Origin: Rhodocyclaceae bacterium
Lineage (GTDB): Bacteria; Pseudomonadota; Gammaproteobacteria; Burkholderiales; Usitatibacteraceae
Assembly (NCBI GenBank): GCA_020247545.1
Contig: JADCIX010000031.1
Location: forward strand, 1-37,920
Length of the DNA: 37,920 nt
Direction: 5' to 3'
Under the pieces are notes generated by a model. That model saw only the letters and a list, made by a program, of their open reading frames with translations. It was not told the DNA's origin and did no database searches. Shown here one piece after another: positions 10,989 to 36,350 of this stretch; position 1 is the first letter of the stretch; every line of letters starts with the position of its first letter. A program made the translations under genes and the position numbers.

Positions 10989-11522
10989 GTGAACATTCGT
11001 CGGCCTCAAGAAATGACGCTCGCTGCAGCAATACTGTTCGCCACGTGTGTCGTGGGCGGCTGCGCTTCTAAGCGCGCGCTCGACAAAGCAGACCCCGGCA
11101 GTCAAATCACTTCATACGCGTCGAACGGAGACGTTAAAGCCGAAGTCATTGAAGCCCCTGAACGCGCGCGGTACAAGGCCACCAAAGGCGTGACTTTCAT
11201 CAGTCCTGAACCATGGGAAAAAAATGCAGTGCCAAAGTATCCGCCTGGCTTGCTAATCAAACGCCTCGACCCAGTCGAGGTTGTTGTGCGCGTTATTGTT
11301 AATACGGTGGGATCGGTCGATTCGGCAACAATCGCCAGTACTTCAAGTGAGGAACAGGCGTTCGCGGAAGAAACGCTGGCGGCGGTGAAGCGATGGGCCT
11401 TCAGCCCACTGCAGCGCATCGAAGGATCTTCGATCCAACCGCTACCATTTTCGCAAGAGTATCGATTCATCTTTAGGCAGGTCAACGGACGCGCAGTTGT
11501 ATCCTCTGGAAGTAGTCAGTAA
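10989..11522 (+). CDS. Lipoprotein with TonB C-terminal domain
   Basis: A 177-residue protein starting at GTG 10989, preceded by GGAAAG at about five bases. The N-terminus is a lipoprotein signal: a hydrophobic stretch ending VVGGC with Cys25 followed by ASK. After a short linker, residues ~90-175 (VEVVVRVIVNTVGSVDSATI...AVKRWAFSPL) are the TonB C-terminal fold that in TonB binds the TonB box of outer-membrane receptors. There is no N-terminal TonB transmembrane anchor or long proline region, so it is not canonical TonB. It may be a periplasmic lipoprotein that uses the same fold. The methyltransferase gene follows seven bases after its stop. Confidence 0.7.
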   Translation: MNIRRPQEMTLAAAILFATCVVGGCASKRALDKADPGSQITSYASNGDVKAEVIEAPERARYKATKGVTFISPEPWEKNAVPKYPPGLLIKRLDPVEVVVRVIVNTVGSVDSATIASTSSEEQAFAEETLAAVKRWAFSPLQRIEGSSIQPLPFSQEYRFIFRQVNGRAVVSSGSSQ

Positions 11523-11529
11523 GTCGGAT

Positions 11530-12342
11530 ATGGAACTCCTGCGGACGCTGTCGCGAGTGCAGAATCGGCCACAGGCCACTGTTCGCGAGCGATTCCTGAC
11601 TTCATTTCGTGATCTACTGAATCAAGTGAAAAACACGGTGACTCCGACCCCTTGGATTCTCGATGTCGGGTGTGGCACCGGGAGTTTAACGTCGACGCTT
11701 GCCCTGAATCCCAATATTCGCGCTCTCCGCGGGGTCGATTTTTCAGCCGCTTATATCGAGCACGCCACGCACAATAACGACGACTCCCGCGTTCAATTCC
11801 AAGTTGGTGATGCGTGCGCGCTGCCATTCGGGAATCAAGAGTTCGATCACTCGCTTTCGATGTTGGTGCTCCAATTCATTGCACAGCCAGAAAAGGCGGT
11901 GAGCGAGATGCGTCGCGTCACACGTCCGGGCGGCACCGTTGCGGCTGCGACATGGGACTCGCGCGGCGGTTTTGTGTGGTTACGCATGTTCTGGGACACC
12001 GCGGCAATGCTCGATCCGGAGGCAGTTGTACGGCGGGCGAAGGTCTGCGCTCGTCCGATGACACGCCCTGGTGATTTAGAGCGGGCATGGAAGGCCGCAG
12101 GGCTGACTAATGTTGTGCAGGACATGCTTACCATCCGCATGGACTTTGCGTTGTTCGAGGACTTCTGGAGGCCGATGGAGGGAAAGGATGGTCCCTACGC
12201 AGAATATGTTCGCGCGCTTACGCCGGACGCGAAGGCGGTCTTTAGGGAAAAGATGGCGTTGGCTTATCTAGACGGCGAAGCGGACGGACCGCGTTCGTAT
12301 GCCGCCACCTCTTGGGTGGTGAAAGGCACGGTGCCATTTTGA
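11530..12342 (+). CDS. Class I SAM-dependent methyltransferase
   Basis: A 270-residue cytoplasmic enzyme of the Methyltransf_11/UbiE-like group. SAM motif I ILDVGCGTGSL is at about 43-53, an acidic residue ends the next strand (GVDFSAAYIE), and motif IV/post-I are seen in ALPFGNQEFDHSLSMLVLQF and RPGGTVAAATWD. The substrate cannot be told. The frame runs up to a TTG at 11497 inside the preceding gene; the ATG at 11530 leaves seven bases after the tonB-like stop and is preferred. An 8-base inverted repeat (AGCGCGCC/GGCGCGCT, 12342-12359) sits on its stop codon. Confidence 0.82.
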   Translation: MELLRTLSRVQNRPQATVRERFLTSFRDLLNQVKNTVTPTPWILDVGCGTGSLTSTLALNPNIRALRGVDFSAAYIEHATHNNDDSRVQFQVGDACALPFGNQEFDHSLSMLVLQFIAQPEKAVSEMRRVTRPGGTVAAATWDSRGGFVWLRMFWDTAAMLDPEAVVRRAKVCARPMTRPGDLERAWKAAGLTNVVQDMLTIRMDFALFEDFWRPMEGKDGPYAEYVRALTPDAKAVFREKMALAYLDGEADGPRSYAATSWVVKGTVPF

Positions 12343-15192: not shown

Positions 15193-15627
15193 ATGACCGA
15201 CACGATCGTGTTGTGAGGGTTTGCGGCACGCACCCGAGAGTCGTATTTATCGACTATCGCCAGCTTGGCCCGGCACTACGGGAAGCGACCTGACGAACTG
15301 ACTGGGGAACAGCTACAAGACCGCCTACTGTTTCTGATCAACGACCGGAAACTCGCGTACGCCAGCGTCAACACGGTCGCCTGCGGGATGCGGTTCTTTA
15401 CGGGCAGGTATTGGGACGCGCCACGGTACGTTTGGATATTCCGATGGCCAAATCCCCGAAACGGCTGCCGCAGATTCTGTCTCGCGAGCAAGTCGTCAAA
15501 CTCATCGGTGCAGCACGTACGCCGCGTGCCCGGATGTTGCTTATGACGACCTACTCGGCCGGGCTACGGGTGGCGGAGGTCTGTGCGTCGGAGCTGACCG
15601 ATATCGAGAGCGCACCGGATCGCATGA
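15193..15627 (+). pseudogene. Decayed tyrosine recombinase (site-specific integrase)
   Basis: Three lesions break one recognisable gene. The frame from ATG 15193 meets a TGA at 15214. It resumes as the SAM-like N-terminal core-binding domain (FAARTRESYLSTIASLARHYGKRPDELTGEQLQ, LAYASVNTVACGMRFF). Near 15400 it jumps to another frame, consistent with loss of one base in a T run, and continues RATVRLDIPMAKSPKRLPQILSREQVV...TTYSAGLRVAEVC, the start of the catalytic domain containing the first Arg (GLRVAEV). It stops resembling an integrase after about 15627, so the His-x-x-Arg and Tyr regions are gone. It is more like stand-alone integrases found with insertion sequences than integron IntI. It cannot be active. 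Confidence 0.75.
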
Positions 15628-16014
15628 GTAATCTGTTGAGGCATTCATGCACCGGACGATGCAACTGGATCGATGGGTTTGCCCGCTGGCACACTTAAGG
15701 TCACTGCGTTCCTAGCGCCTTTGCGTCACGGGCGAAGCAGGGCTTGCCCGGCGAGGGCACCGCCATGAAGCGCGAACCGCAGGCGAATTTACAGCTTAAC
15801 CGCATGCTGGCAAATCATTGGCAGGGATTGGATCGTCCACCCTCCATAGAATCGCGATTAGTGCGCGCCTGCGGCAACCTGTCGCAATACCAAGTGGCGT
15901 CCACGCGAGCCGGTGCAGCCAGATTTCTCGTGACCGCGAACACCAGCACGCGCTATATTGTTTCCATGAACCGCTCGGCAGACTTACAATCCCCATAGCC
16001 CCCGCGCCGGATCA
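15628..16014. other. Junction between recombinase relic and first attC
   Basis: About 390 bases without a supported gene. The frame 15744-15998 (plus) and its antisense have no ribosome-binding site or domain. It could be a cassette whose gene has decayed, since an attC follows at its right end, but no left attC boundary is seen. Confidence 0.35.
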
Positions 16015-17726: not shown

Positions 17727-19058
17727 TTACAGTTGGAACGGGTAAACCGAACCCAACTTGAGAATGGAGGTAAGTTCGTCCAACGCGACGCGCACCTCGG
17801 TGATCAATGCCGGATCGGTGAGATCCGCATCGGCCATACGATCACGGTAGTGCTTCTCCACCCAAGTCGTGAGCCGTGCATACAGGGTGTCATTCAATAC
17901 GACGTTCGGGTTCACCGCGTTCGCTTCAGCCGCGTTGAGTTCAACACGAAGCCGCAAACACGCGGGGCCGCCGCCGTTCATCATGCTTTCGCGCAAATCA
18001 AACACCAGCGTTTCGTTTAACACCGGATGCGATGTGACCAATCCTTGCAGGTAAGTCCACACACGTGGATTTGTCCGACATTCGTCGGGAACCACAATCG
18101 CCATCTTGCCGTCAGGTTTCGATAACAGTTGACTGTTAAAGAGATAACTCGACACCGCATCCTCAACCGAGACATCGGCGTCCGCCACGTTGATCACAAC
18201 AAACCCCTCGCCGAACTTTTCGCGTAACTCGGCAAAGACGGCGGCTTGGTTAGCAAACGCGCGATCGTGGCAGAACAACAACTCACGATGCCCGACCGCA
18301 ATCACGTCGTTGTGGAACACACCCGCATCAATCACATCGGGATTCTGCTGTGCAAACACGGTGACCGATGTATCGAGCCCGTGTAACCGCGCCACGGCCT
18401 CCGAGGCTTCACGCGTTTGCCGTGCGGGGAATTTTTTCGGTGCAGGCGCACTCGGGTCAAAACCAGTCGCTCCGTAAACAAAAAACTCCACCCCCTTCGC
18501 CCCAATACGCGGCGCAAAGCGTGTGTGGTTCGCCGCCCCTTCATCACCAAATTGTGGGCAGGAAGGGAGTGCCGCGTGGTGGGCAAAACACTTATCGTCG
18601 GCAAACATCGCACGCAAGATGCGCGAGGTCGTCGGATGCTCCATCGAGCGATGGAATTTATTGTTCAAGTTCGCCGCGGTGAAATGGACACGCTTATCTG
18701 CTGTGTTTGCACTCGGGCTCACTGTCGCGGCGTTGGCTGACCACATTGAAGACGCCGACATCACGCCGTTGAATACCGGGCGTGCATCACGCGCCGCCGT
18801 TTTCAACACGGCTACATCGTCCCCCGAAAACCCCAACGCGCGAAGCGCGGCTAGGTTGGGGCGCTCCTGCGGTGCCAACACACCCTGTTTCCAACCGCGA
18901 TCGGCCAGCGCCTTCATCTTGGCCAAGCCCTGTAACGCAGCAAGTTTTGGGTTCGCCACCACGCCCTGATTTTTTGCCGATGCGATATTGCCGAATGAGA
19001 GACCGCTGTAGTTATGCGTTGGCCCCACCAGCCCATCGAAGTTCCATTCGTTTGCCAT
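17727..19058 (-). CDS. astB: N-succinylarginine dihydrolase
   Basis: Second enzyme of the arginine succinyltransferase (AST) pathway: succinylarginine to succinylornithine + CO2 + 2 NH3. The N-terminus [21 protein letters not shown] is the family signature. The catalytic His lies in [15 protein letters not shown] and the nucleophile Cys (about residue 367) in [13 protein letters not shown] use the ATG at 19058 because family members have five or six residues before NFDG. In-frame ATG 19067 and a GTG at 19082, which overlaps the astD stop as GTGA, are alternatives giving up to 451 residues and translational coupling. It is the last gene of the ast operon here; astE is not found after it. Confidence 0.93.
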
Positions 19059-19078
19059 TGCGTCCATATTGGAAATAC

Positions 19079-21635
<2,557 letters not shown>

Positions 21636-21642
<7 letters not shown>

Positions 21643-22730
21643 GTCGCCCCCGTCAGATGGTGATTGGCGGTATCAAGCGGCACCACACGCACGGCGTCGC
21701 CGTCGTCCACATCAATCAGCACCGCCACTTCTCGCGATACACCAATATGATCACTGCCGTTGCCAACACCGGATCCAGTGCCAATCACCACCGGTGCGAT
21801 GGTGGCGCGAAACCCTTCTGACTTTGTGTTTGCGACAATTGACATCACCGCCCTACCCGACTCGATGGTCTCGGCGAGATTCGGCAAACTTGTGGAAACG
21901 GTCATACGTCGTTGCAGACGAACCGACCGCAGGGTTTCCACGCGCGCTTCGACCGTTGGACCGCCGTCAAAAATATCCACGTAGGTGTCAGCCTCAAAGC
22001 CCTCGTCCATCAAGATGGAAAACGGCAACTCGCCGTCGGGATGTAACTGGCCGATGGCCAGCTTTGCGGCCGCTGGCAGTAGCGGGACGTAGATTGGATA
22101 CTGCGGCATTAACTCGGCAATAAAGGTTTTGCTGCGCCCGCCGGAAAGCTGCTCAGCCTGTGGATAGTCCATGTTGAAGAAGCGACGCCCGACCGCATCC
22201 CAAAACGGTGAGCGGCCTTCGGCATCACACACGCCGGGGTTTTCGGCGGCGAGTTTGTCGGCAAATCGTTGACGCTGTTCAGCAACATACAACAGCCGTG
22301 CGCGCGACAACAAATCCGGCAAGTCGCTATCGACAAAGGTTGGGTCGATGTAAAACGAGGTCAATAATGACAAGCCAGTCAGATCATGACAAAGGTGCAG
22401 CGCGTGAATCTTGTTGCTGACCTTAAGCTCTTGGGACGCATGCACGATGATTTCGTTGCGGTACGAGTAGAAACGATCATGAAAACCTGCGGCCGCCGCA
22501 ATCCCGCTGGTACCGACAATCTCACCGGTGTTGGCATTTTCGAGCACAAAAAAGTATGCCTCTTCACCCGGCAGATCAACTTCACTCGCAAACGAGTAAC
22601 GCGAATTGGTGATCTTGTCAGTGAGCCGATCCCGATCGGGCGGCAACGAGGTAATGCCGATCGCGCTCTTAGCCGCAATCGATTCGATTTGCGGCAGATC
22701 GGTAAGCTCGGCCGGACGAAGAACAAACAT
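21636..22730 (-). CDS. aruF: Arginine N-succinyltransferase, alpha-type subunit (AruF-like)
   Basis: 364-residue paralogue of the next gene, again of the AstA family: LRPAELTDLPQIESIA, IGITSLPPDRDRL, FYSYRNEIIVHASQEL, LLSRARLLYVAEQRQRF, FNMDYPQAEQLSGG, FIAELMPQYPIYVPLLP. The sequence parallels AruG along its whole length with modest identity, as expected for the two subunits. It starts five bases after the astC stop and overlaps aruG by seven bases, so the subunits are probably made in equal amounts by coupling. Confidence 0.88.
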
Positions 22731-22735
22731 GTTGT

Positions 22736-24191
<1,456 letters not shown>

Positions 24192-24195
24192 CATA

Positions 24196-25242
24196 TCAAC
24201 CATCTCCCATTGGGTTACCTTGGTCCGCCGCCGAGGTGGCGGCGAGCGCGTTTAATCGGCGGCTGCGCTCATCGCGCGGCGTTAACTGAAAATGCGCCCG
24301 GTAAGCGCTGGAAAAGTGCGGCCCGGACGAAAATCCGCAGGAGAGTCCGATCTGCAGAATCGACTGGCTGGTCTCGCGCAGCAGCTGGCGCGTACGTGCT
24401 AACCGCATTTCAAGGTAATACCGAGACGGCAGGCTATCCAGATGCTGCTTAAAGAGTCGCTCGAGCTGTCGCCGCGAGACACCCACCAAACGCGCAATTT
24501 CCTCAGTCGACAGAGGCTCCTCAAAGTTTGCCTCCATGAGTGCGACAGCTTCGGTCAGTTTAGGCTGTCCGCCTCCAATCCGTGCCGATAGCGGCACCCG
24601 CTGGCGCTCGTCCGCCGCACGCGCGCGCTCGATACCGAGCTGATCCATGACTTCAGCGGCGACGTCCGCCCCTAGGCGGGCGGTCACCAAAGCGAGCATC
24701 AAGTCTTGGGCCGCCTGTCCGCCCGCCGCCGTAAATCGGTTTCGATCGATCTCGAATACGTGCGAGGACACCACGACATCAGGGAATTGTTCGGCAAACA
24801 AGGCCGTATAGGGCCAGTGAATAGTGGCGCGGAAGCCGTCCAGCAGCCCAGCACGCGCCAACACCCAGGCACCAGTACCGATACCCCCCAGCGCTACGCC
24901 AGCCGCGTCCGCCGCACGCAGTCGAGCGATGATGTTGTCATGTCCAACCTCAGCCAGCGGTGCGTCGCCTACGACAAACAATACATCCAGCCGGCTGAGC
25001 GTATCTGCTGCCGCATTGGCCAAGAGCGAAATTTTGCTGGCGCTGTGCACTTCCTGCTTCGGCGAGACGGCCGCCTGACTGGCTGCGGCCACAATGCCAT
25101 CGCCGAGCACATGTACGGAAAGGGTTGCCTCACCCGAAACATCGTTGACGGCTTCAATAATGCCAAGCGCACTGCCGAGTGCCGCTAGCGAAAAGCGAGG
25201 CAAGAGGAGGAAACCGATGTGTCGAAAGTTCGGGCGCGGCAT
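24196..25242 (-). CDS. argR: ArgR-like AraC/GlxA-family transcriptional regulator
   Basis: A 348-residue protein with an N-terminal DJ-1/PfpI (GATase1-like) sensor domain (RHIGFLLLPRFSLAALGSALGIIEAVN ... ALGGIGTGAWVLARAGLLDG) and a C-terminal AraC double helix-turn-helix (VALMEANFEEPLSTEEIARLVGVSRRQLERLFKQHL ... QIGLSCGFSSGPHFSSAYRAHF). In P. aeruginosa a protein of this architecture, ArgR, senses arginine and activates the aot and aru operons. Here it sits exactly between aotP and astC, the same order, so the role is strongly suggested. The ATG at 25242 begins at the domain; no clear ribosome-binding site is seen. A TTG at 25362 would add 40 residues. Confidence 0.88.
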   Translation of the reverse strand: MPRPNFRHIGFLLLPRFSLAALGSALGIIEAVNDVSGEATLSVHVLGDGIVAAASQAAVSPKQEVHSASKISLLANAAADTLSRLDVLFVVGDAPLAEVGHDNIIARLRAADAAGVALGGIGTGAWVLARAGLLDGFRATIHWPYTALFAEQFPDVVVSSHVFEIDRNRFTAAGGQAAQDLMLALVTARLGADVAAEVMDQLGIERARAADERQRVPLSARIGGGQPKLTEAVALMEANFEEPLSTEEIARLVGVSRRQLERLFKQHLDSLPSRYYLEMRLARTRQLLRETSQSILQIGLSCGFSSGPHFSSAYRAHFQLTPRDERSRRLNALAATSAADQGNPMGDG

Positions 25243-25320
25243 TAACGGCAGACGAAATGGGAAGCCACCAAAGGAGAGCGAACGGAACGGCCAACACAAA
25301 TTCAACAAAACATCAATAAC

Positions 25321-25360
25321 GACGGGCGTCTCCAAGCATTTATGCCTGCAAATGCCCGTC
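25321..25360 (-). promoter_or_regulatory. Hairpin upstream of argR
   Basis: GACGGGC (25321-25327) pairs with GCCCGTC (25354-25360), and inside it GCATTT (25336-25341) pairs with AAATGC (25350-25355); the two pairings share the GC at 25354-25355. There is no T tract. It lies in the 250-base gap between aotP and argR and may be an operator, an RNA processing site or an attenuator. Confidence 0.4.
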
Positions 25361-25492
25361 AATACTAGTGTTTGCTAAATTGTATGCAATCAAGGAGTCA
25401 CCGAAGTGACCCTCCATCACGCGGCACGCTCGAGGATTTTCCTACAAGTTATGGCACGCAAACCCAGATTCGCAGTTTTTCTGGTGTCCGCG

Positions 25493-26266
25493 CTACTTCA
25501 AACTGCCCGACAAAAACTGTTGCAGTCTTTCACTGGTTGGTTTGCTCAGCACGACACGCGGATCGCCCTGCTCCTCAATGCAGCCCTTGTGCAGAAACAC
25601 CACGCGGTTTGACACTTCGCGCGCGAAGCCCATCTCGTGCGTGACGACCACCATGGTGCGCCCCTCACTTGCGAGGTCACGCATCACGCGCAACACCTCA
25701 CCGACGAGTTCCGGGTCTAACGCCGAGGTCGGCTCATCAAACAACATCACATCCGGCTCCATCGCCAGCGCGCGGGCGATTGCCACACGCTGCGCTTCAC
25801 CGCCGGAAAGATGCGCGGGATAAAAATCTTTGCGATGCCAAACGCCGACACGGTTCAAGTAACGCTCAGCGCGTTCAAGTGCTTCCTGTTTGGACAGGCC
25901 GAGCACCTGCATGGGCGCTTCGACAACATTCTCGCTTACCGTCATATGTGACCACAAATTGAAATGCTGAAACACCATGGATAATCTCGCGCGAAAACGC
26001 TCCAACGCCTTTGGATCTGCGGCGGTCAGCGTGCCATCGCGGTCGCGCCTTAACGCCAGACTTTCGCCATTAACAGCAATAGAGCCTTCGTGCGGGCGCT
26101 CAAGCAGATTCATACAACGCAGCCATGTGCTTTTGCCTGAGCCAGAAGAACCGATAATGCTGATCACATCCCCCGCGTTTGCGGCCATCGAAACGCCCTT
26201 CAGAACATCGTTGTTGCCGAAGCGTTTAACGATGCCGTCTACACGTAATTTTTCTTGTGGGCTCAT
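25493..26266 (-). CDS. aotP: Arginine/basic amino-acid ABC importer, ATPase
   Basis: A 257-residue ATPase of the HisP/ArtP/AotP group. Walker [10 protein letters not shown] at 39-47, Q-loop VFQHFNLW, signature [15 protein letters not shown], Walker [15 protein letters not shown] and the switch [10 protein letters not shown] are all intact. It energises AotQM/AotJ uptake at the inner membrane. The 102-base gap to aotO could hold an internal promoter, but no convincing box was found. Gene order aotJ-Q-M-O-P followed by argR equals that of P. aeruginosa. Confidence 0.93.
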
Positions 26267-26368
26267 GTTGAAATTGATTCGAGGGGTGACTGATTGTGTT
26301 CAGTTCTAAGCCAGACTAGGACGGGGGTGCCAAACGCGAAGCGACAAAATTGACGCAAGCCAGCCTCC

Positions 26369-27487
26369 CTAACGCGCGCTCAGCAAATTACCAGTGCGAA
26401 ATGGCACCTTACCGGCGATCTTGCACAGCCGCATCCCAGCATGCGCAAACCGACTGGTGCTACGCGCATACAAGACCCCATCGGTTGTCGCCTTCAACGC
26501 AGTAGTGTGCCCTGTGATCGGATCAATCACATTCGCCACCAAGTCGCCGGCATGAATCATGTCACCCAGCGCGCGCTGATAGTCGACCACGCCGGAGACG
26601 GGCGACTCAACCGCCTCTGAGCCCGCCAGCGGTGTTGCGTCATGTAACAGCGGCGGGGGTGGTGCTGCCGCGCCGCGAATGAATCCCTGCTCGGTCAGGT
26701 AGGAGATGATGGCACCTGCATCCTGCTCCGCCAGCGCCTTCGAGACGTCGGCTTCACCACGCAGTTCGACCGTCACCGATACACAAGCCAACGGGATCGG
26801 AACACCGGGGAAACGCTCGCGCAGCATCCACCAGGTTCTTGAACACGCTTCGTCGAACGGGTGGTCGCCGGAGACCGTTTCCAGCAGCGTCGCTGCGGCA
26901 CCGAGGTAGCGCGCGAGCGGCTCGACACGCTCCCACAAAGGGCTGCCCGCATACAAATGCATTAATGCCTCGCTATCACAGTGCAGATCGAGTACCACAT
27001 CGGCATCCGCGGCAAGCGCAAACAGTGTCTGGCGCAGGCTCGCCATCTCGGTCTTCACCGGCAGTGCCCGAATGGCATCGATCAAAGCGGCGCGAATCAA
27101 GTTCACGTTAGCAGTCTCGTCCGGTCCGAGCTTCGTTTCTACCTTCTTCGCGACAATGTCCACTACATCGGGATAGTGACGATTAAAGTTCTCTGCAGTC
27201 AGAAGTTCGAAACGTCCGATGTGTGCATGATCGATCCACTGCGAAAGACCGATCGGATTGGCGACCGGCACCAATACAACCTCGGTTTCAAGCGACTTGC
27301 ACTCCTCGAGCTCCGCAAGCAAGCACTTGAGATGGTGCGCTACCAACAAGCCCGGCACCTCATCAGCGTGTAATGCCGCATGAATGTAAATCTTGCGATT
27401 GCGGTCGGTTGGCCCGAAGTGGAAGCTGACAATTTCACGCGATGTGCCGATGACCGGTGACAAAAGAGGGTGCTTACGAATTTGCAT
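26369..27487 (-). CDS. aotO: AotO-like succinylglutamate desuccinylase/aspartoacylase-family protein
   Basis: A 372-residue zinc-dependent deacylase or carboxypeptidase-like protein (M14/AstE-AspA clan). Zinc ligands are visible as His40 and Glu43 (HAALHADEVPG) and His169 (LDLHCDSEA), with NFNRHYPD between. The C-terminal ~70 residues (ESPVSGVVDYQRALGDMIHAGDLVANVIDP) have a beta-barrel look typical of this branch. In P. aeruginosa aotO lies in the arginine transporter operon and its function is unsettled. Because astE is missing from this locus, this protein is the best local candidate to hydrolyse succinylglutamate. It starts 28 bases after aotM. Confidence 0.85.
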   Translation of the reverse strand: MQIRKHPLLSPVIGTSREIVSFHFGPTDRNRKIYIHAALHADEVPGLLVAHHLKCLLAELEECKSLETEVVLVPVANPIGLSQWIDHAHIGRFELLTAENFNRHYPDVVDIVAKKVETKLGPDETANVNLIRAALIDAIRALPVKTEMASLRQTLFALAADADVVLDLHCDSEALMHLYAGSPLWERVEPLARYLGAAATLLETVSGDHPFDEACSRTWWMLRERFPGVPIPLACVSVTVELRGEADVSKALAEQDAGAIISYLTEQGFIRGAAAPPPPLLHDATPLAGSEAVESPVSGVVDYQRALGDMIHAGDLVANVIDPITGHTTALKATTDGVLYARSTSRFAHAGMRLCKIAGKVPFRTGNLLSAR

Positions 27488-27515
27488 AGTTTTATCGTAG
27501 AGAATGTGATGATTG

Positions 27516-28253
27516 CTAGATTCGTGGCGCGGTGGTCAACACGACGCCGCTGACATCGAACGAGTTCTTGCGCGGCGCGAGATGCTGTAACCAGCGACGC
27601 TCGGCAAAATGAAACAAGCCAACCAGCGAAAACGTGAGCAGCATATAACACGCACCGGCCGTCAAAAACGCCTCAAACGGCAGGTAGGTTCGTGAATTCA
27701 TCTCTCTTGCCGCACCGGTCAAATCCATCACTGTCACCACACTCGCCAGTGACGTGCCGTGCAACATCATGATGACCTCATTGGAATACGCTGGCAACGC
27801 GCGACGCATCGCGGAAGGCAGCAAAATGCGCGTCAGCACCTGGAGCTTGCTCATCCCAAGGCTGTTGGCCGCCTCGACCTCGCCGTAGGGAACGGCGCGC
27901 ATGGCACCAGCAATGATTTCCGCTGTGTACGCCGCTGTATTCAGGGTGAACGCCAGCACTGCGCAAAACCAGGCGGAGGACAACAGCGGCCAGAGTACAC
28001 TCAGCCGCACCCATTCAAACTGTGCCACGCCGTAGTAGATCAGGAACAATTGCACCAGCATCGGTGTGCCGCGAATGACATAGGTATAGAGCCATACCGG
28101 TCGCGAAATCCACACGTTGTTACTCGCACGCGCGATGCCTAAAGGCATGGCGAGCAACAGGCCCGCCGCCAGCGCTACCGCGAGCAATTGCAGCGTTGTC
28201 CCGATGCCTGTCGCATACATGGGCAAGGATTCGATGATGGCATCGAAATTCAT
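27516..28253 (-). CDS. aotM: Arginine ABC importer, permease subunit M
   Basis: A 245-residue inner-membrane permease of the HisM/AotM type with about five helices. The N-terminal helix is GIGTTLQLLAVALAAGLLLAMPLGIA. The cytoplasmic EAA loop is EAANSLGMSKLQVLTRILLPSAM (seen in two parts: EAANSLGMS and ILLPSAMR). The ATG at 28253 is one base after the aotQ stop, so coupling is likely; the longer frame to 28310 would intrude into aotQ. A ~25-residue C-terminal tail (APRKNSFDVSGVVLTTAPRI) extends past the usual end. Confidence 0.9.
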   Translation of the reverse strand: MNFDAIIESLPMYATGIGTTLQLLAVALAAGLLLAMPLGIARASNNVWISRPVWLYTYVIRGTPMLVQLFLIYYGVAQFEWVRLSVLWPLLSSAWFCAVLAFTLNTAAYTAEIIAGAMRAVPYGEVEAANSLGMSKLQVLTRILLPSAMRRALPAYSNEVIMMLHGTSLASVVTVMDLTGAAREMNSRTYLPFEAFLTAGACYMLLTFSLVGLFHFAERRWLQHLAPRKNSFDVSGVVLTTAPRI

Positions 28254-28254
28254 C

Positions 28255-28941
28255 TCAGGCTGCCCCGCGCAAACCGACGGTGACGCGCTTTTCCAACGCA
28301 CCCAGTGCAAGCAGCGAAATCGATGTGATGGCTAGGTAGATTGCGGCAGCAGCCAGATAAAAGGTAAACGGTTCACGTGTCGCGCCCGCCGCCAGCCCCG
28401 CGCTGTGCATCATGTCGGTCAAACCAATGACAGAAACGATTGCTGTCGATTTCACCAACACCAGCCAGTTATTGGTGAAGCCGGGAATGGCAAGACGTAC
28501 CATCTGCGGAAACGTGATTCGCAAGAACACACGCATGGGCGACATACCAAACGCCAGCCCTGCCTCGCGTTGGCCTGCGGGGATTGCCATCAACGCTCCA
28601 CGGAAAGTTTCGGTCAGATAGGCACCGAAGATGAATCCGATGGTCGCCACACCGGCGACGAACGGATTAATATCGACATAGCCCTCATAACCGAGCGCGG
28701 CAGCGGCGGCGTTGATGCCAATCTGGCCGCCGAAAAAGATCAGCAGCATCAGCACCAGGTCGGGTACGCCTCGCACTACCGTGGTGTATGTTGAGGCCAG
28801 CCAACGAATAACAGGGATGCGCGACAACTTTGCGGCGGCTCCCACCAATCCCAGCAAGACGGCGATCACTAACGACGCCCCCGCTACGCCAAGCGTCGTC
28901 AAAGTGCCGTCCAGCAGTGTGGGGAGAAACCCGTGCAACAT
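28255..28941 (-). CDS. aotQ: Arginine ABC importer, permease subunit Q
   Basis: A 228-residue permease of the HisQ/AotQ type: TLLDGTLTTLGVAGASLVIAVLLGLVGA at the N-terminus, the conserved TTVVRGVPDLVLMLLIFFG, and the EAA loop EAGLAFGMSP...RITFPQMVRLAIPGF. It pairs with AotM to form the membrane channel. It lies six bases after aotJ and one base before aotM. Confidence 0.92.
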   Translation of the reverse strand: MLHGFLPTLLDGTLTTLGVAGASLVIAVLLGLVGAAAKLSRIPVIRWLASTYTTVVRGVPDLVLMLLIFFGGQIGINAAAAALGYEGYVDINPFVAGVATIGFIFGAYLTETFRGALMAIPAGQREAGLAFGMSPMRVFLRITFPQMVRLAIPGFTNNWLVLVKSTAIVSVIGLTDMMHSAGLAAGATREPFTFYLAAAAIYLAITSISLLALGALEKRVTVGLRGAA

Positions 28942-28947
28942 GTGACG

Positions 28948-29781
28948 TTATTTCTTCGCCGTCGCGTTGGTGGCTGCAGCAGCCGCGGTCGCAGCTGCGG
29001 TGCCGTACACATCAAAGTCGAAATACACGTCTTGAATCTTTTTGTATATGCCGTTGGCACGAATCGCGGCGATTGCCTTATTGAAGTCTTCGCGTAGCGA
29101 ATTGTCGCCCTTCCGAAGCGCAATTCCAGCACCGACACCAAAGTACTTCGGATCGTCGTACACCGGGCCAACAAAGTGAAAATTCTTCCCCTGCGGCGTT
29201 TTCAAAAATCCCACCTGCGCTGCAATCATATCGAGCACCGCCGCATCAACACGGCCTGACGCGAGGTCAAGAAACACCTCGTCTTGTTTAGTGTAACGAA
29301 CGATATCCGCGCTCTTAAAGTTTTCGCCAACAAATCGGTCATGGATAGTCGAGCGCTGCACACCAACCCGTTTGCCCTTCAATCCTGCGGGGGTGACTTC
29401 GAGCGTGGAACCTTTCTTCACGACAAATTGCGCGGGTGTTTTATAGTACCTGTCCGTGAAATCCACTGCCTTCTTGCGTTCATCGGTAATCGACATCGAG
29501 GCGATCACGGCGTCAATCTTGCGGCTGTTTAACGCGGGAATCATGCCGTCGAAGGCTAATTGTACGAATACACATTCCACTTTCATCTGCGCACACAACG
29601 CGTTGGCGATATCGATGTCAAATCCTTTTAACTTGCCAGAGGTGTCGATTTCACTGAACGGCGGATAGGCACCTTCCACGCCGAGTCTTACTTTTTTTGG
29701 CTGGGCGTCGGCACCCAAACTAAAGACCGCAAAAATTGCGACAACCGCGACAAACAAAACTGCGCGCAATAACACGTTCAT
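28948..29781 (-). CDS. aotJ: Basic amino-acid ABC importer, periplasmic binding protein
   Basis: A 277-residue SBP_bac_3 family protein. The signal peptide (LLRAVLFVAVVAIFAVF..., cut near ADA-QP at 26) leads to the binding fold: RLGVEGAYPPFSEIDTSGKLKGFDIDIANALC, FDGMIPALNSRKIDAVIASMSITDERK and VGAGIALRKGD. These are the lysine/arginine/ornithine-type signatures (the Asp in MSITDERK binds the ligand alpha-amino/carboxyl site). The last ~20 residues are an unusual Ala/Thr-rich tail, TAAATAAAAATNATAKK. It overlaps the cyanophycinase stop by four bases (ATGA), so both are translated together. Confidence 0.92.
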   Translation of the reverse strand: MNVLLRAVLFVAVVAIFAVFSLGADAQPKKVRLGVEGAYPPFSEIDTSGKLKGFDIDIANALCAQMKVECVFVQLAFDGMIPALNSRKIDAVIASMSITDERKKAVDFTDRYYKTPAQFVVKKGSTLEVTPAGLKGKRVGVQRSTIHDRFVGENFKSADIVRYTKQDEVFLDLASGRVDAAVLDMIAAQVGFLKTPQGKNFHFVGPVYDDPKYFGVGAGIALRKGDNSLREDFNKAIAAIRANGIYKKIQDVYFDFDVYGTAAATAAAAATNATAKK

Positions 29782-31208
29782 TTCACACTCTCCAATTTAG
29801 GCACCGCAGCGGGGGTCTGACTGGGCACGCTTGCCGAACCCACATTTTCGCCTGCTTTCCGCCCGCCTGCCGTCGAAAGCGGCATGTACAAAGGTTTTGC
29901 CATCAGTACCGGAACGATATCCAATCCCATACGAAGGATGCTGTAGTCCTCGCCCCCCAACTTAGAGGTGAAATAGCCAATTGTAGATGCAGTCTTGAAT
30001 AGCCGAAATTCGAAGCCAACATCCTCAGCCTCAATCGAGGTGGTGGTGGGGCTCCCACCGACGCGACCAGCCGAAAACGCGATGCCACGGGTTTCAGCGG
30101 CAGGACTATCGAGCAATTCACTCATGGCAAACAGAATCGTGTTGTCACCCAGCATATCCGGATAAAAGCGAACGCGATTGTTGTAGGGATTAAAGTCAGC
30201 CGACGTGTGGTCGAGCTTTTTCCCCGCCAGCTTGACGGGCGATGGTGAAACGACACCACTGCGAAGATCGACCCGATCACCACGATCTAACCAAGTCAGC
30301 GTGGCACCCAAGACGCGCAACGGCTTGCTGCTAACTTGACTTGCGCCGCGCAGGTCAACGAGTAACACGCCGCGCCCGCCGATTGCTTCGACGTCGCCGC
30401 CGTCAATAATGGCAGCGCTGTTTTCTTCCACCCCGAGGCCCAGCTTGATGTTCTGCTGCGCCATGACGGCAACCATACGACCGATGCGGCCGCGCTTCAA
30501 AAAATGCTGATCAACAAACACGCCCGGCCCGGCAAACCCTAGCCCTCGATCGATTTCGCTACCCCACCTTGCACCGCGCTGCATCACCGTCAGGATCGCC
30601 GGCGGTTCGCGGAACATGGTTTCGGACATGATTGCCGCACCCGCACTTGAGCCGGCGACGACACCACCACGCCTGAACAAACGCCAAATCGCCTCGAGCA
30701 TCGGCGTGGGTTTGCCGTCGACGGAGTACAAGGCTGCGGTGATTCGTTCCTGCGCCCCACCTGAAAAATAGACACCACTCGCGCCGTCAATGGCGGCGAT
30801 CCACTTGGTGTCCGCAACAACCGTGCGGGGGTCGAACCCCTTCAACTTATCCGACAGCGGAATCATTTCCGCTTTTGCACCGTGTTTCTGCAACGACTCG
30901 ATGAGACTTTTTGCCGATTGTTCGGGCTCACCCGAAGCGGTCGGAAACACCACCCACTTCGCGCCGGGGCCGCCGCTTAGGCTAACGATTCGGCCCCAAA
31001 CATCGGCGTTGTCCGACTTGAGAGCACCGCCGATTGCGACCGCGATACCAGCTTTGACAACCTTGGAGCCCTCATTCGCCCACAGCGGCGTCGGCAGGCT
31101 ACAAACAATGAACACCCATGCCACGAGGTACGCCGCCAGTATGTGGCGGCTGGAATTCAGTGCCTCGCGGTGTGAATCGCGGTGTGAAAACACGCAGAAA
31201 AGTTTCAC
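29778..31208 (-). CDS. Exported cyanophycinase (peptidase S51 family)
   Basis: A 476-residue protein. A hydrophobic segment at about 23-44 ending in LWA-NEG is a signal peptide, so it acts outside the cytoplasm. The S51 fold is seen in AIGGALKSDNADVW, KWVVFPTASGEPEQ, GVYFSGGAQERI and the nucleophile elbow VVAGSSAGAAIM with Ser188. Cyanophycinases cut multi-L-arginyl-poly-L-aspartate into beta-Asp-Arg dipeptides. Length and export resemble extracellular CphE rather than the ~270-residue cytoplasmic CphB; the C-terminal ~160 residues are extra. The start is a GTG at 31208 with a weak GAG upstream. Four-base overlap with aotJ makes it the first gene of the arginine transport operon, which supports an arginine-releasing role. 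Another alpha-aspartyl dipeptidase-type specificity cannot be excluded. Confidence 0.85.
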   Translation of the reverse strand: MKLFCVFSHRDSHREALNSSRHILAAYLVAWVFIVCSLPTPLWANEGSKVVKAGIAVAIGGALKSDNADVWGRIVSLSGGPGAKWVVFPTASGEPEQSAKSLIESLQKHGAKAEMIPLSDKLKGFDPRTVVADTKWIAAIDGASGVYFSGGAQERITAALYSVDGKPTPMLEAIWRLFRRGGVVAGSSAGAAIMSETMFREPPAILTVMQRGARWGSEIDRGLGFAGPGVFVDQHFLKRGRIGRMVAVMAQQNIKLGLGVEENSAAIIDGGDVEAIGGRGVLLVDLRGASQVSSKPLRVLGATLTWLDRGDRVDLRSGVVSPSPVKLAGKKLDHTSADFNPYNNRVRFYPDMLGDNTILFAMSELLDSPAAETRGIAFSAGRVGGSPTTTSIEAEDVGFEFRLFKTASTIGYFTSKLGGEDYSILRMGLDIVPVLMAKPLYMPLSTAGGRKAGENVGSASVPSQTPAAVPKLESVK

Positions 31209-31614
31209 GGTAACTCAGTGGGAATTGTGGCGACGCACGATATTGACACATCGCCGTGACCGCCCATAGGCGCGCCCTGCAGAAAATTGCGCAAGTTGTA
31301 ACCGATGGTCGCATTGTTATAAGCATCCCGACCAAACGATCCCCGCAGCTACGGGGTTGGAACCCGGCAATTAGGTCAGATTCGTGAAAATGACCACAAC
31401 CCGCTTTCAACTTTGCGACGCCAAGTTGTCAACAAGCGACGGCTACCCCGTCCGGGGCTTTTTTTCCCCACGCCGGTGGCTAGACTCCATCGATTACGAA
31501 GGGGAAAACTCGTCATTAGTCAGGTCAACCAACAATTTCCCAGCTGCCAGCCACTACGCCTATTTTTCACGAACCCTTGATTAGTCAAACATGCCCACTA
31601 CGGAGTCCACCCAA
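31209..31614. promoter_or_regulatory. Divergent control region between cyanophycinase and TonB-dependent receptor, with RNA-like hairpins
   Basis: About 400 bases with promoters for both directions presumed. On the plus strand CCCCG-CAGCTA-CGGGG (31341-31356) competes with GGGTT-GG-AACCC (31354-31365). Further on, CCCCGTCCGGGG (31446-31457) is followed by CTTTTTTT (31458-31465), a terminator-like element about 150 bases before the receptor ATG. Alternative hairpins plus a terminator in a leader suggest attenuation, or a small RNA. No known riboswitch was recognised. Confidence 0.4.
31446..31465 (+). terminator. Terminator-like hairpin in the receptor leader
   Basis: A short GC stem (CCCC/GGGG, loop GTCC) is directly followed by seven T. 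The stem is short, so efficiency may be low or conditional. Confidence 0.4.
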
Positions 31615-34413
31615 ATGAAACAAACGCACTTTGTTTTGAAGCCATGCGTCCTCGCAGTCGCAGCGGCAATCGTGTCGATCCACGCGGTAGCCCAGACGCC
31701 GACCGCCGCACCTGCGCCCGCTGCGCCCGCCGTCAAGGCGGAAAAAATCGAGGTAACTGGTTCGTCCATCAAGCGTATCGAAGGCGAGAACGCGCTTCCG
31801 GTGCAAGTCATCTCGCGCGAAGACATCGACAAAAGCGGTGTCACTACAGCGGCCGAATTGCTGCAAAAGATCACTGCCAACGTCGGCGGCTTGACCGACG
31901 GAGCCAGCATCACCGACCAAGCCGGCGCGCAGCGTGGCTTTAACGGTGCGAATTTGCGCGGCCTGGGCGTGTCCAGTACGCTGATACTCCTAAATGGCCG
32001 TCGCCTCGCCAACTTTGCCTCACCTGGGGACAACTCAGGTGTTGATCTCAACAATATTCCATCTGGTGCAGTTCAGCGCGTCGAAGTACTGAAGGACGGT
32101 GCCTCAGCAATTTACGGTACAGATGCAATGGGCGGAGTGATCAACTTCATCACCCGCAAAGACTATCAGGGCGCGGACATCAAGATCTACACCGCGAGTA
32201 CTGAACAGGGCGGTGCGGGCAAAACGACCGTGAGCGCCTCTGCAGGTATTGGCGACCTCGGTAAGGATGGGTTCAACGTCTTTGGTGCAATCGATGTGCA
32301 GAAACTCGATCCACTACGTTCCAGCCAGCGCAAGTTCATTCAAGAGTACGACCTGCCCGGACGCCTGGCACCACAAACATCGTCCAACCCGTTTCCAGCC
32401 AACGTCGATCTCACCTCGGCACAACTGACAACTTTGAATAACTTTGTACGCGCCAACCCCACCACCGCGCTGCGTGGCACCAACGCTGATGGCACGTGGA
32501 ATCCGGGCGGCATCAACAGCGGCTCACGTCGTGTCAACTTCGCCCGCACGTCGTGCACTGGCGGCGCGAACCCCAACTCTGTCCAACCCACCGGACTGGG
32601 TGGCCGGGAAGGCTGTAGCTTTAACTACATGGCTGATACCGAGATTTATCCAAAATCGGACAAACAAAACTTCATCGGCCGCGCCACGTTCCAGTTGGCC
32701 CCCACGCACCAATTGTTTGCTGAATTACTCCTGAGCAAGACCGAGACGGACTACGCCGCATCGCCGGCAACATCGGGCAACATCGCCGCCAGCGCCGGCA
32801 TCACCCTGCCGGCTTCGCTGCAAGCGGTGACTGGTATCACCACACCGGTCGCCTTCCGCTTCCGACTCTCGGACGCTGGCGGGCGCACCAGCCGTGTCGA
32901 GAGCGAAGCCACACGTGTGGTCGTCGGTGCAACTGGCACTGTTGCCGACTGGGACTACGACGCCGCGATCAACCGCAGCGTGAACGAGACGACCGACGAA
33001 AACATCCGCGGCTGGGTGTCGAACACCCGCCTGCGCGCTGGTATTGCTGCCGGTGCCTACAATCCGTTCGTGTTACCGACTGCCGCCGGACGGGCATTCA
33101 TGGATTCAATCCAACTGAGCGGCGCAGCACGTATCTCCAAAGGCACCACCACCATCATCGACGGCAAGTTGTCACGTACGCTGACCCGCTTAGATGGCGG
33201 CGATGTCGTTCTTGCATTGGGTGCAGAGGCGCGACGTGAAGAGACCAGCTTCCGTGCCACGGATGTGTTGAAGAGCAACGATGTGGTTGGCGACCGTTCA
33301 AGCTCGGGCGCACTGTTGGCAGACACCAGCAATACCCGTAATGTCAAGGGTGCTTACGCCGAAATCATCGCGCCGTTTACCAAACAATGGGAAGGCCAGT
33401 TCGCGCTGCGCAGCGACCGCTACGACGGCGTCTATGACAAGGCCCTCAACCGCACGACGTCAAACCTGACCTCCACCAATCCAAAAGTCGGGATCAGCTT
33501 CCGTCCCGACAACACACTGCTGTTCCGCGCTTCGTATGGTACCGGCTTCCGCGCGCCGTCGGTTTCCGAGTTGTTCCGTCCAGTACGATCCGGCGTGACC
33601 GCCAGCTTCGTACGCGATCCTGTTTCGGGTGAGGTGGGTCAGTTGCCCATTGATCGCTTCTCCAACCCAGACCTACAGCCCGAGAAGTCCAAACAGTTCA
33701 GTGTCGGCGTGATCTTTGAGCCCTCGCGCAATTGGAGCGGTAGCGTTGACTTCTGGACCATCCGCAAGACCGACATCATTTCGGAAATCGGCGAAGAGAC
33801 CATCTTCAGCAACCCAACCTACTACAACAACTCGGCTATCGTCAGCCGCTTCTCGGACGGCTTTGTTAACGTCATCACCGTGAAGAAAGAGAACCGCGGC
33901 AAGCTCAATACCGCCGGTCTGGACCTCGCGTTGCGTTGGCGCGGTGACAACGGTCCCTTCGGTCGTTTTGGTGCAGACATCTTGGGCACCGTCGTCACTG
34001 AGTACAAGTTCGCGACCGATCCACGCTCACCACTGGTCGACGGCTTGGGCAAATTCCGCGACGACAAGGCCGTGCAACGTTGGCGTCATAAGCTGAACTT
34101 CGATTGGGACCGCGGCCCGATCGGCGTGACACTTTCCAACACGTATCTTTCAAGCTATCGCGACCAAAACGTCGACGGCTTGGCGGCACCGGAGTGGAAC
34201 AACCGCGACGTAAAGGCTTACTCGCTTTGGGACCTGAGCGGCAGCTACCGCTTTTCGAAGGAACTTCGCCTACGCGCTGGCGTGTTGAACCTTGCCGATA
34301 CTGCACCACCGTTCACCAACCAGTCGCGCTACTTCCAAGTCACGTGGGACTCCACCTATGGCGATCCGCGAGGGCGTACTTACTTTGCATCCCTCGCGTA
34401 TTCGTTTAAGTAA
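31615..34413 (+). CDS. TonB-dependent outer-membrane receptor
   Basis: A 932-residue receptor. Signal peptide (KQTHFVLKPCVLAVAAAIVSIHAVAQ), a short Pro/Ala linker, a TonB-box-like EKIEVTGSS, then the plug domain (LPVQVISREDIDKSGVTTAAELLQKI ... LRGLGVSSTLILLNGRRLA ... VEVLKDGASAIYGTDAMGGVINFITRK), and a 22-strand-type barrel ending in aromatic FASLAYSFK. ATG 31615 is preferred over ATG 31591 because GGAG lies nine bases upstream and the signal peptide starts there. The substrate cannot be read from the sequence; neither siderophore nor cobalamin synthesis genes are nearby. Divergence from the cyanophycinase operon suggests peptide or amino-acid-polymer uptake, which is inference. A strong terminator follows. 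Confidence 0.92.
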   Translation: MKQTHFVLKPCVLAVAAAIVSIHAVAQTPTAAPAPAAPAVKAEKIEVTGSSIKRIEGENALPVQVISREDIDKSGVTTAAELLQKITANVGGLTDGASITDQAGAQRGFNGANLRGLGVSSTLILLNGRRLANFASPGDNSGVDLNNIPSGAVQRVEVLKDGASAIYGTDAMGGVINFITRKDYQGADIKIYTASTEQGGAGKTTVSASAGIGDLGKDGFNVFGAIDVQKLDPLRSSQRKFIQEYDLPGRLAPQTSSNPFPANVDLTSAQLTTLNNFVRANPTTALRGTNADGTWNPGGINSGSRRVNFARTSCTGGANPNSVQPTGLGGREGCSFNYMADTEIYPKSDKQNFIGRATFQLAPTHQLFAELLLSKTETDYAASPATSGNIAASAGITLPASLQAVTGITTPVAFRFRLSDAGGRTSRVESEATRVVVGATGTVADWDYDAAINRSVNETTDENIRGWVSNTRLRAGIAAGAYNPFVLPTAAGRAFMDSIQLSGAARISKGTTTIIDGKLSRTLTRLDGGDVVLALGAEARREETSFRATDVLKSNDVVGDRSSSGALLADTSNTRNVKGAYAEIIAPFTKQWEGQFALRSDRYDGVYDKALNRTTSNLTSTNPKVGISFRPDNTLLFRASYGTGFRAPSVSELFRPVRSGVTASFVRDPVSGEVGQLPIDRFSNPDLQPEKSKQFSVGVIFEPSRNWSGSVDFWTIRKTDIISEIGEETIFSNPTYYNNSAIVSRFSDGFVNVITVKKENRGKLNTAGLDLALRWRGDNGPFGRFGADILGTVVTEYKFATDPRSPLVDGLGKFRDDKAVQRWRHKLNFDWDRGPIGVTLSNTYLSSYRDQNVDGLAAPEWNNRDVKAYSLWDLSGSYRFSKELRLRAGVLNLADTAPPFTNQSRYFQVTWDSTYGDPRGRTYFASLAYSFK

Positions 34414-34480: not shown

Positions 34481-34514
34481 AAAACCCCGCCGGTCTTGCG
34501 ACTGGCGGGGTTTT
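34481..34514. terminator. Bidirectional rho-independent terminator
   Basis: AAAACCCCGCCGGTC (34481-34495) and GACTGGCGGGGTTTT (34500-34514) pair over 15 positions with one G-T pair and a TTGC loop. A flanks on one side and T on the other let it stop the receptor transcript and the convergent Omp85-like transcript. Confidence 0.9.
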
Positions 34515-34637: not shown

Positions 34638-36350
34638 TCAGAAGGAAAATTCACTCTTCACCAAGAACTGCAGTGGCTTGATACCCGGCGCGCGGTTCAG
34701 TGGTGCCGCCAGATCGACGTGCAACATATTGGCAAATGCAGTACGGTCGAGGGCCACCCGTAGGCCAATGCCGACGTCCGAGAGTTGCCCGCCGTTAACC
34801 TTGTTCTGGTTCAGCCCACCCCACGCGCGGCCACTGTCAAAAAACACGGCGCCACCAACACGAAGCAACCGGAAGGGGTACCAATCGGTGAACGCGCGCT
34901 TCTCAATTGAGGCAAGTACCCGCTGGTCACCGGCCTGATAACGTGCGGGATAACCGCGCAGGCCAGACAGGCCGCCGATCATTAACTGGTCGGCAATCCC
35001 GCCGCCATTAATCCGATCAACCGCGAGCGACGCATAAAAAAGTGAGCGCGCGGGTTGGGGTGCGTAATATTTCAGCGTGAACCCCGCCTGCGTCATCGGT
35101 CTGCCGGTCGTGGCAATACGGCGATCAACAACGACGCCGGTCAGGAGTACGCGATTCGACATTAATTGGGTGCCGTTGCTAACCGCCGCTGAAAACAACA
35201 AGTCCGAGCGGGTCGACCCCATCGCCGCCACTGGCACGGTCAATTGCACACGCGCGTTAAAACCGACAACCAGATACTCGGCGCGCTCAATCCGGTTGTA
35301 GTTTTTGACTTTGACAAATGCATCTTCGAGCAAATCCATCCGCAAAAAAATTGCCCGTAACTTATTATCGACCGGTAACAGGAGTGGGGCAACCCGGCCG
35401 CTCTCAGTGCGATAGCTGTTGTCGTTGATGAGCCCGCCTGCAGAGAAACGCCGCGTCCAACCGTTCATGAGCCCCGGCGACCAGCCGCCGCTCAATTCTG
35501 CCGACTGTATTTGGTGACGATACTCACTGACAATATTGCCGGCGTTGTAGATGGGGTCGATACGATCCTCTTCCCGCCAATCGCCACGCGCCGCCCAGCG
35601 CGTATCGAGCGAGTAGAACGGCCTATCTATGATCAGCGAGGTTCGGCTGCCGTCGTTGAAGCGCGCTCGCGCAAAATCCAGAGTTGTACGGCCATCAAAG
35701 AGCTGTGTTTGCGACAACTCGAATTCGGAACCTTTCCGGTCAATGTCTGCGGTGCGCGCATAACTGATGCTGGTGCCATTACCAAAAAGATTTTGTTCCG
35801 CTATTCCAAAACTGGTTTTGTTGTCCCCGCCGGCCCGTGAAAAGCTGCCGGTCAGATTAAGTGTCCACGTGTCACGGGTAGCGACCTCGATATCCACCAC
35901 ACCGTCTTTGTATGTCAACGGCTTGATATCAACGTCGTAGCGCGTGCTTGAAGCCCTAAGCAGGCGCTCGGTCTCGTCAATTTTCTGGCGCGAGACTCGG
36001 TCGCCGCTTTTGAACAACAACACCCGTTCAATCACCGGCGCACGAGTGGGAATATGCAACCGGTTGACCCAACGAAAAAATGCATTGTTTTCGGCGTCAT
36101 CCGACAGATCAAAAATATTCTGCGGATTGATGTGGATCTTGCCGATAACTGCACCAGAGCGCTCTAGCTCGGCAAAATCGGGGGTGTTTGTTGTCGTGGC
36201 CCCCGCTGTGGTCCCCGCTGTGGCCACACTAGCCTGATGCGCAAGCAGCAAGCATGCGCATGCAATCACATGCCTTAGCCACGCGCAGCCAGCCACTTGC
36301 TGTGCGAAGCAGGTTATTTCATGCCCGGCGGATGACTTTGAAGATAACAA
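34638..36350 (-). CDS. Omp85/TamA-like outer-membrane barrel protein
   Basis: A 570-residue protein of the BamA/TamA superfamily. After a hydrophobic leader (HVIACACLLLAHQASVATA), residues ~75-170 contain a POTRA-like region (VIERVLLFKSGDRVSRQKIDETERLLRAS ... VDIEVATRDTWTL). From ~175 a beta-barrel follows with the surface-antigen (D15) landmarks GGLSGLRGYPARYQAGDQ, where the RGY is the conserved lid-lock element, and a final ...FLVKSEFSF. Barrel ending in Phe is typical for outer membranes. With only one or so POTRA domain it is shorter than BamA (~800). It may be a patatin-barrel-type or accessory secretion/assembly factor; the partner is unknown. The only upstream start in frame is a TTG at 36350; GTG codons at residues 19 and 28 are alternatives. 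Confidence 0.8.
   Translation of the reverse strand: MLSSKSSAGHEITCFAQQVAGCAWLRHVIACACLLLAHQASVATAGTTAGATTTNTPDFAELERSGAVIGKIHINPQNIFDLSDDAENNAFFRWVNRLHIPTRAPVIERVLLFKSGDRVSRQKIDETERLLRASSTRYDVDIKPLTYKDGVVDIEVATRDTWTLNLTGSFSRAGGDNKTSFGIAEQNLFGNGTSISYARTADIDRKGSEFELSQTQLFDGRTTLDFARARFNDGSRTSLIIDRPFYSLDTRWAARGDWREEDRIDPIYNAGNIVSEYRHQIQSAELSGGWSPGLMNGWTRRFSAGGLINDNSYRTESGRVAPLLLPVDNKLRAIFLRMDLLEDAFVKVKNYNRIERAEYLVVGFNARVQLTVPVAAMGSTRSDLLFSAAVSNGTQLMSNRVLLTGVVVDRRIATTGRPMTQAGFTLKYYAPQPARSLFYASLAVDRINGGGIADQLMIGGLSGLRGYPARYQAGDQRVLASIEKRAFTDWYPFRLLRVGGAVFFDSGRAWGGLNQNKVNGGQLSDVGIGLRVALDRTAFANMLHVDLAAPLNRAPGIKPLQFLVKSEFSF

Follow-up and report, generated by a model that had tools for sequence, protein, structure and literature searches.

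A probable cyanophycin-scavenging and arginine-catabolism locus headed by a predicted exported cyanophycinase in a Rhodocyclaceae genome

A predicted exported cyanophycinase at the head of an aot–argR–ast run

We analysed a stretch of 37,920 nucleotides (the window) from Rhodocyclaceae bacterium (GenBank assembly GCA_020247545.1, contig JADCIX010000031.1, positions 1 to 37,920), one contig of a 3.54 Mb draft genome that is 99.99 per cent complete. Its minus strand carries a compact run of genes (31208–17727) in the order cphE, aotJ, aotQ, aotM, aotO, aotP, argR, astC, aruF, aruG, astD and astB. Every gene listed in an earlier, sequence-only reading of this DNA was recovered at the same position and on the same strand, including the overlap of exactly four bases between cphE and aotJ and a TonB-dependent receptor gene that diverges from the operon (Table 1). 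Further overlaps occur between aruF and aruG (7 bases) and between astD and astB (4 bases); the widest gaps are those between aotP and argR (130 bases) and between aotO and aotP (102 bases). The block is very probably a locus for cyanophycin scavenging and arginine catabolism in one piece.

The product of cphE, an S51-family protein, scores above the cut-off of the cyanophycinase model TIGR02069 (130.1 versus 126.6 bits). Aligned to the residues of CphB, it retains all nine residues listed for cyanophycinases (PMC3235067), namely the Ser-His-Glu triad and a Gln/Asp/Gln/Arg/Arg/Arg pocket; Q153, S188, D233, Q234, H235, R239, R241, R244 and E262 are invariant across 11 aligned rows. Its predicted fold matches cyanophycinases clearly better than dipeptidase E, a comparison that covers mainly residues 54–363, and a hydrophobic stretch (residues 23–34) in a helix (residues 20–37) ahead of the core predicts export. 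By profile model, fold and active-site residues the protein is a cyanophycinase, as the sequence-only reading had proposed, with its activity and final location predicted. The nearest match in a named record (83 per cent) is from a metagenome-assembled genome called Rhodocyclaceae bacterium. The C-terminal region (182 residues, window positions 29778–30326) gave no sequence match in the PDB; it is strand-rich in the model and conserved among relatives.

Table 1 Features of the locus, with window coordinates and the basis of each assignment
Feature	Coordinates	Strand	Basis or remark
cphE, predicted exported cyanophycinase (S51)	29778..31208	-	Signal peptide; S51 core at about residues 54-323; strand-rich C-terminal region
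Tandem ARG box (predicted ArgR-type operator)	31405..31441	-	Points towards cphE, between cphE and receptor gene; published consensus
TonB-dependent receptor, putative importer of cyanophycin fragments or dipeptides	31591..34413	+	Divergent; Pfam plug and barrel, linkage, tree
aotJ, predicted periplasmic protein that binds basic amino acids / beta-Asp-Arg	28948..29781	-	TIGR01096 (lysine/arginine/ornithine binding protein), 278.5 bits (cut-off 256.35)
aotQ, ATP-binding cassette (ABC) permease	28255..28941	-	HisQ model, 244.1 bits (below cut-off 319)
aotM, ABC permease	27516..28310	-	HisM model, 251.9 bits (below cut-off 306)
aotO, predicted CphZ-type cyanophycin dipeptide (beta-Asp-Arg) hydrolase	26369..27487	-	AstE_AspA_cat; 8ein/8eip match; invariant residues
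aotP, ABC ATPase	25493..26266	-	HisP model, 414.8 bits (below cut-off 466)
argR, AraC-family regulator with DJ-1/PfpI-like domain, putatively of Pseudomonas ArgR type	24196..25362	-	Domains; ARG box upstream of operon
astC, succinylornithine transaminase	22736..24166	-	AstC model, 677.4 bits (cut-off 609.95)
aruF, arginine/ornithine succinyltransferase alpha	21636..22730	-	AOST subfamily, 387.9 bits (cut-off 284.35)
aruG/astA, arginine succinyltransferase	20599..21642	-	AstA/AruG model, 487.1 bits (cut-off 391)
astD, succinylglutamate-semialdehyde dehydrogenase	19079..20554	-	AstD model, 802.3 bits (cut-off 579.3)
astB, N-succinylarginine dihydrolase	17727..19082	-	AstB model, 722.4 bits (cut-off 538.3)
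Terminator-like hairpin 3' of receptor gene	34481..34514	+	Pattern scan alone, weak (28 sites versus 23.1 expected)

The open reading frame listed for aotM overlaps aotQ, and the true start of aotM may lie inside it. Beyond the run, the window encodes a 570-residue protein (34638–36350) that matches BamA/Omp85 weakly (34.1 and 27.2 bits) and Pfam not at all, a small protein with a TonB C-terminal domain adjoining a methyltransferase (10989–12342), and two overlapping short frames (15265–15698) that by eye resemble pieces of a broken tyrosine integrase.

Conservation of the locus in relatives

We searched 149 relatives besides the genome itself (G000–G149 with it included) and found a long CphE (E value of 1e-80 or better) in 12. 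The link between an exported S51 cyanophycinase and aotJ is conserved, as the sequence-only reading would predict: cphE directly precedes aotJ in six of the 12 (G004, G008, G009, G010, G011 and G014; the G010 contig ends within the aotO counterpart, cphZ, discussed below), which indicates that the gene order is more than chance. Two further contigs end on the aot side of cphE (G001 and G012), and G149 has the block on one strand in the order aotJ, aotQ, aotM, cphZ, aotP, receptor, cphE. A receptor gene adjoins cphE in 10 of the 12, in divergent and co-directional arrangements (the exceptions are G048 and G082). Among 12 loci from named records, one of which is G008 (L059 and G008 are counted once), cphZ is present in 10, the other two loci being contigs of 6.1 and 7.3 kb, and a receptor is present in 6.

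CphZ occurs in 11 of the 12 genomes with CphE and in 16 of the 137 others (P = 9 × 10−9, computed with 138, which changes little), a test that treats related genomes as independent, which they are not. Counted by genus, the figures are 5 of 5 and 9 of 77 (P = 7 × 10−5). An aot-cphZ-argR-ast unit without cphE is common, ending in astE in G048, G058, G094, G102, G137 and G144. Thus, cphE and the receptor gene have the appearance of a module that was joined to the head of an older operon. Three genomes of the same genus (G002, G003 and G006) carry aot-cphZ-ast with neither cphE nor argR there, the G006 contig being short. The operons of G002 and G003 are also without aruF, and G002 shows no astD between aruG and astB.

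A receptor family and an ARG box that accompany cphE

Matches of the receptor to family models and PDB entries (heme, siderophore, colicin and B12 receptors) are weak, run mostly through the plug and suggest the general class alone. TonB receptors are also numerous, with 26 first-look candidates in this genome. Both observations favour a reading in which two separate units adjoin: an ordinary aot-cphZ-argR-ast uptake operon, and a receptor gene, for iron, heme or another substrate, that adjoins cphE by chance. The adjacency in 10 of 12 relatives, in either arrangement, argues against this, as does the phylogeny of the receptors. We constructed a tree of 39 rows that includes 21 of the 27 listed non-adjacent receptors (those of this genome among them, with a maximum of five scored in any one genome; G012:C215, two of G003, G021:C51, one of G082 and G137:C15 were left out). 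Thirteen of the 16 cphE-adjacent receptors form one clade (support 100/99), the sole other member of which, G082a, is from a genome with a long CphE elsewhere; no shuffle of the labels in 500 clustered the adjacent receptors equally well. The program flagged long branches in this tree. The three remaining cphE-adjacent receptors, from Undibacterium/Oxalobacteraceae, lie elsewhere in the tree, which indicates that receptors were recruited at least twice.

The intergenic region common to cphE and the receptor gene also contains a predicted operator. The published ARG box, TGTCGCN6GNAA, occurs in tandem, 5 bp apart (PMC10963909, PMC4997734), and ArgR of Pseudomonas aeruginosa activates aotJQMOP-argR (PMC12341379). 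The argR product here combines AraC-type helix-turn-helix and DJ-1/PfpI domains, and its best NCBIfam model is that of the paralogue GbdR (308.3 bits, cut-off 480). A 21-base period was read from the alignment and a relaxed pattern (YGTCGC) was written after the site had been seen; at up to two mismatches, the tandem form of this pattern matches the window at the site in Table 1 alone (0.16 expected; 14 of 100 shuffles have one). The final test used the printed consensus of the Pseudomonas ArgR site, which the site fits with 3 of 18 mismatches (0 of 300 shuffles as good).

The box was present in each of the 10 cphE/receptor regions tested, with 2–4 of 18 mismatches and always pointing towards cphE; shuffles equalled it in 0 of 300 trials for seven regions, 1 of 300 for G012 and 2 of 300 for G011 and G094. 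The cphE–receptor pair of G094 lies on a different contig from the aot-argR-ast operon and still has the box. In G002, G003 and G006, no site upstream of aotJ comes closer than 6 or 7 mismatches, a level that shuffles reach too. The box probably functions as an ArgR operator here. With the box in the shared region and most adjacent receptors in one clade, we consider a chance neighbour unlikely. The probable role of the receptor, suggested by its evolution and regulation, is to bring pieces of cyanophycin, or dipeptides, through the outer membrane. A further proposal seems to us evenly poised: that the receptor is dedicated to importing fragments of cyanophycin or beta-Asp-Arg, and that the block is for a polyamide what a polysaccharide utilisation locus is for its polymer, with receptor, exported depolymerase, importer of the inner membrane, cytoplasmic enzyme for splitting and catabolic operon all under one arginine-responsive box.

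A predicted dipeptidase within the operon and the end of the arginine route

Residues 14–363 of aotO match PDB entries 8ein and 8eip (best E value 7.6e-80) under the entry name 'succinylglutamate desuccinylase'; we take 8ein to be the CphZ entry. H40, E43, H169 and E241, presumably the zinc ligands and the catalytic Glu to judge from the family, are invariant in alignments of 9 and 21 rows, and 8eip has Ala at the position equivalent to E241. Sharon et al. (PNAS 2023) are said to have named the enzyme CphZ and shown P. aeruginosa AotO to be one, with the aot operon reportedly enabling P. aeruginosa to use beta-Asp-Arg. An AstE/AspA-like family has been reported to hydrolyse the cyanophycin dipeptide beta-Asp-Arg (PMC10206079), and the name CphZ is used for an isoaspartyl dipeptidase (PMC12661447). 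By sequence, aotO is a predicted beta-Asp-Arg dipeptidase of the CphZ kind inside the operon. The sequence-only reading had seen no isoaspartyl dipeptidase gene in the window and concluded that dipeptide cleavage must be encoded elsewhere; the former statement is overturned by aotO and the latter need not hold. Because cphE, the aot genes and this aotO lie in one run, polymer cutting, import and dipeptide cleavage would be encoded together. A plant-type asparaginase/IaaA homologue on another contig of the genome (288.1 bits) could be a second dipeptidase. IadA was rejected as a candidate in the genome (24.5 of 331.25 bits).

The genes of the arginine succinyltransferase (AST) route, said in the sequence-only reading to degrade arginine to glutamate, are borne out for AstC, AruFG, AstD and AstB, with AruF below its own equivalog cut-off (426.0 of 458.8 bits), but not for the last step. 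The sole match in the genome to the AstE model TIGR03242, on contig C47, reaches 20.2 bits against a cut-off of 305.65. AstE is above the cut-off in none of the 28 family genomes G000–G027, several of them incomplete (best 29.8 of 305.65 bits), although astB occurs: it is present in all eight whose operon could be read that far.

This absence gives some weight to a reading of aotO as the missing AstE (succinylglutamate desuccinylase) of the family, or as an enzyme with both activities, that completes the AST route. The protein belongs to the AstE/AspA family, beta-Asp-Arg is chemically aminosuccinyl-arginine, and the two other AstE/AspA-domain proteins of the genome, which has three, lie in a peptidoglycan-salvage locus and beside an N-formylglutamate amidohydrolase. 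Yet either of these two could perform the step, and TIGR03242 does not match aotO, which has no NCBIfam match of any kind. We also compared CphZ from 11 family genomes with CphZ from 10 AstE-bearing genomes; the groups have 77 invariant positions in common, share the catalytic set and differ at position 353 alone, outside that set. Since there is no group-specific change in the active site, we keep the AstE reading as a rival only, and a very doubtful one, and retain the assignment of aotO as a CphZ-type dipeptidase. The likely peptidoglycan-salvage locus (G000:C47:14000-29632) contains Amidase_2, LD-carboxypeptidase (S66), S13 carboxypeptidase, M15 D-Ala-D-Ala dipeptidase and TonB receptor genes together with that for the AstE/AspA-like protein.

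A third alternative, that the exported S51 enzyme cuts other arginine-rich or isoaspartyl peptides rather than cyanophycin, is highly improbable given the nine conserved cyanophycinase residues (PMC3235067), fold matches well above dipeptidase E and the co-occurrence of CphE with CphZ.

Proposed pathway and its significance

In the pathway that we propose, exported CphE would cut cyanophycin to beta-Asp-Arg, the receptor would pass pieces of the polymer, or dipeptides, through the outer membrane, and AotJQMP would import both beta-Asp-Arg and arginine. CphZ (aotO) would then split beta-Asp-Arg into Asp and Arg, and AstC, AruFG, AstD and AstB would take arginine along the succinyltransferase route. 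When arginine appears, ArgR acting at the tandem ARG box would probably activate the cphE-aot operon and might do likewise for the receptor gene. Scavenging rather than storage fits this genome, because no cyanophycin synthetase exceeds the cut-off (CphA1, 81.3 of 850 bits); storage was rejected on that ground. Relatives of the same genus (G002, contig C193; G004, C92; G011, C16) carry cphB-cphA1 with a second Mur-ligase-type gene, so a food source of cyanophycin from within the genus is conceivable. The gene before cphB in G004 and G011 encodes a TonB receptor that belongs to another clade.

Several observations weigh against the scavenging pathway. CphE clears its cut-off by just 3.5 bits, and cphE is unlinked to aot in G048, G082 and G094. 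The three members of the genus that keep aot-cphZ-ast without cphE indicate that the transporter and CphZ are independent of it. In a class sample of 368 other genomes outside the order, CphE was found in 2 and CphZ in 13, with no overlap. Without an AstE above the cut-off, the route from arginine to glutamate is incomplete as annotated. Of the capture, cut and consume unit first proposed, what stands is an exported cyanophycinase heading a conserved aot-argR-ast unit, a receptor whose gene accompanies cphE, and the ARG box between the two; the degradation of arginine as far as glutamate is weakened, and the substrate of the receptor is a prediction.

Heterotrophs that eat cyanophycin decide the destination of nitrogen stored by other bacteria. 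The locus would be a compact unit that reaches from the outer membrane to central metabolism, its TonB receptor family becomes a candidate for an isopeptide polymer, and the ARG box is a putative regulatory connection between arginine sensing and the use of cyanophycin. The locus further draws attention to a gap, in that this bacterial family has AST operons but no AstE that can be recognised.

Comparison with known systems

CphZ inside an aot operon has reportedly been described before. The P. aeruginosa aotJQMOP-argR operon, the aotO of which is presumably CphZ, has the same order of aotJ, aotQ, aotM, aotO, aotP and argR, an ArgR-type regulator and an AstE/AspA-like aotO. Here, in contrast, an exported cyanophycinase is the first gene, a receptor diverges from it, and the whole AST set to astB follows in the same run, without astE.

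The CphE proteins of Pseudomonas alcaligenes DIP1 and P. anguilliseptica BI are extracellular cyanophycinases (PMC3235067). They share with the present protein a Sec signal, the GXSXG-His-Glu triad, the Gln, Asp and three Arg of the pocket, and a length of about 420 residues (407–419 in 9 of 11 alignment rows among the relatives here). Gln234 is present here whereas CphEal has Thr, and the gene here is placed within an aot operon.

The cyanophycin utilisation locus of strain L21-Spi-D4 (Ben Hania et al., as described in PMC10206079) likewise clusters a cyanophycinase, a dipeptidase and a transporter in a genome without cphA1. Its dipeptidase is IadA, whereas the present locus has CphZ, a TonB receptor, an ArgR-type regulator and AST genes. 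In Citromicrobium sp. JLT1363, as here, a receptor gene lies close to a cyanophycinase gene, and cyanophycin was proposed as the substrate of this TonB-dependent transporter from that one neighbourhood (PMC3400609). That is a single alphaproteobacterial case, and the available passages report no link to aot, CphZ, ArgR or AST.

The sequence-only reading knew of no described system of this kind. For the full cphE-aot-cphZ-argR-ast-receptor block that holds in the literature searched, which mostly excludes subscription papers; earlier papers already describe loci for cyanophycin utilisation, the CphZ family and a cyanophycinase with a TonB receptor as its neighbour. What is new is an arrangement of mostly known parts, in which the dipeptidase is CphZ, cphE is accompanied by a receptor family and an ARG box is present, and among these it is the receptor and the common arginine switch that are worth testing.

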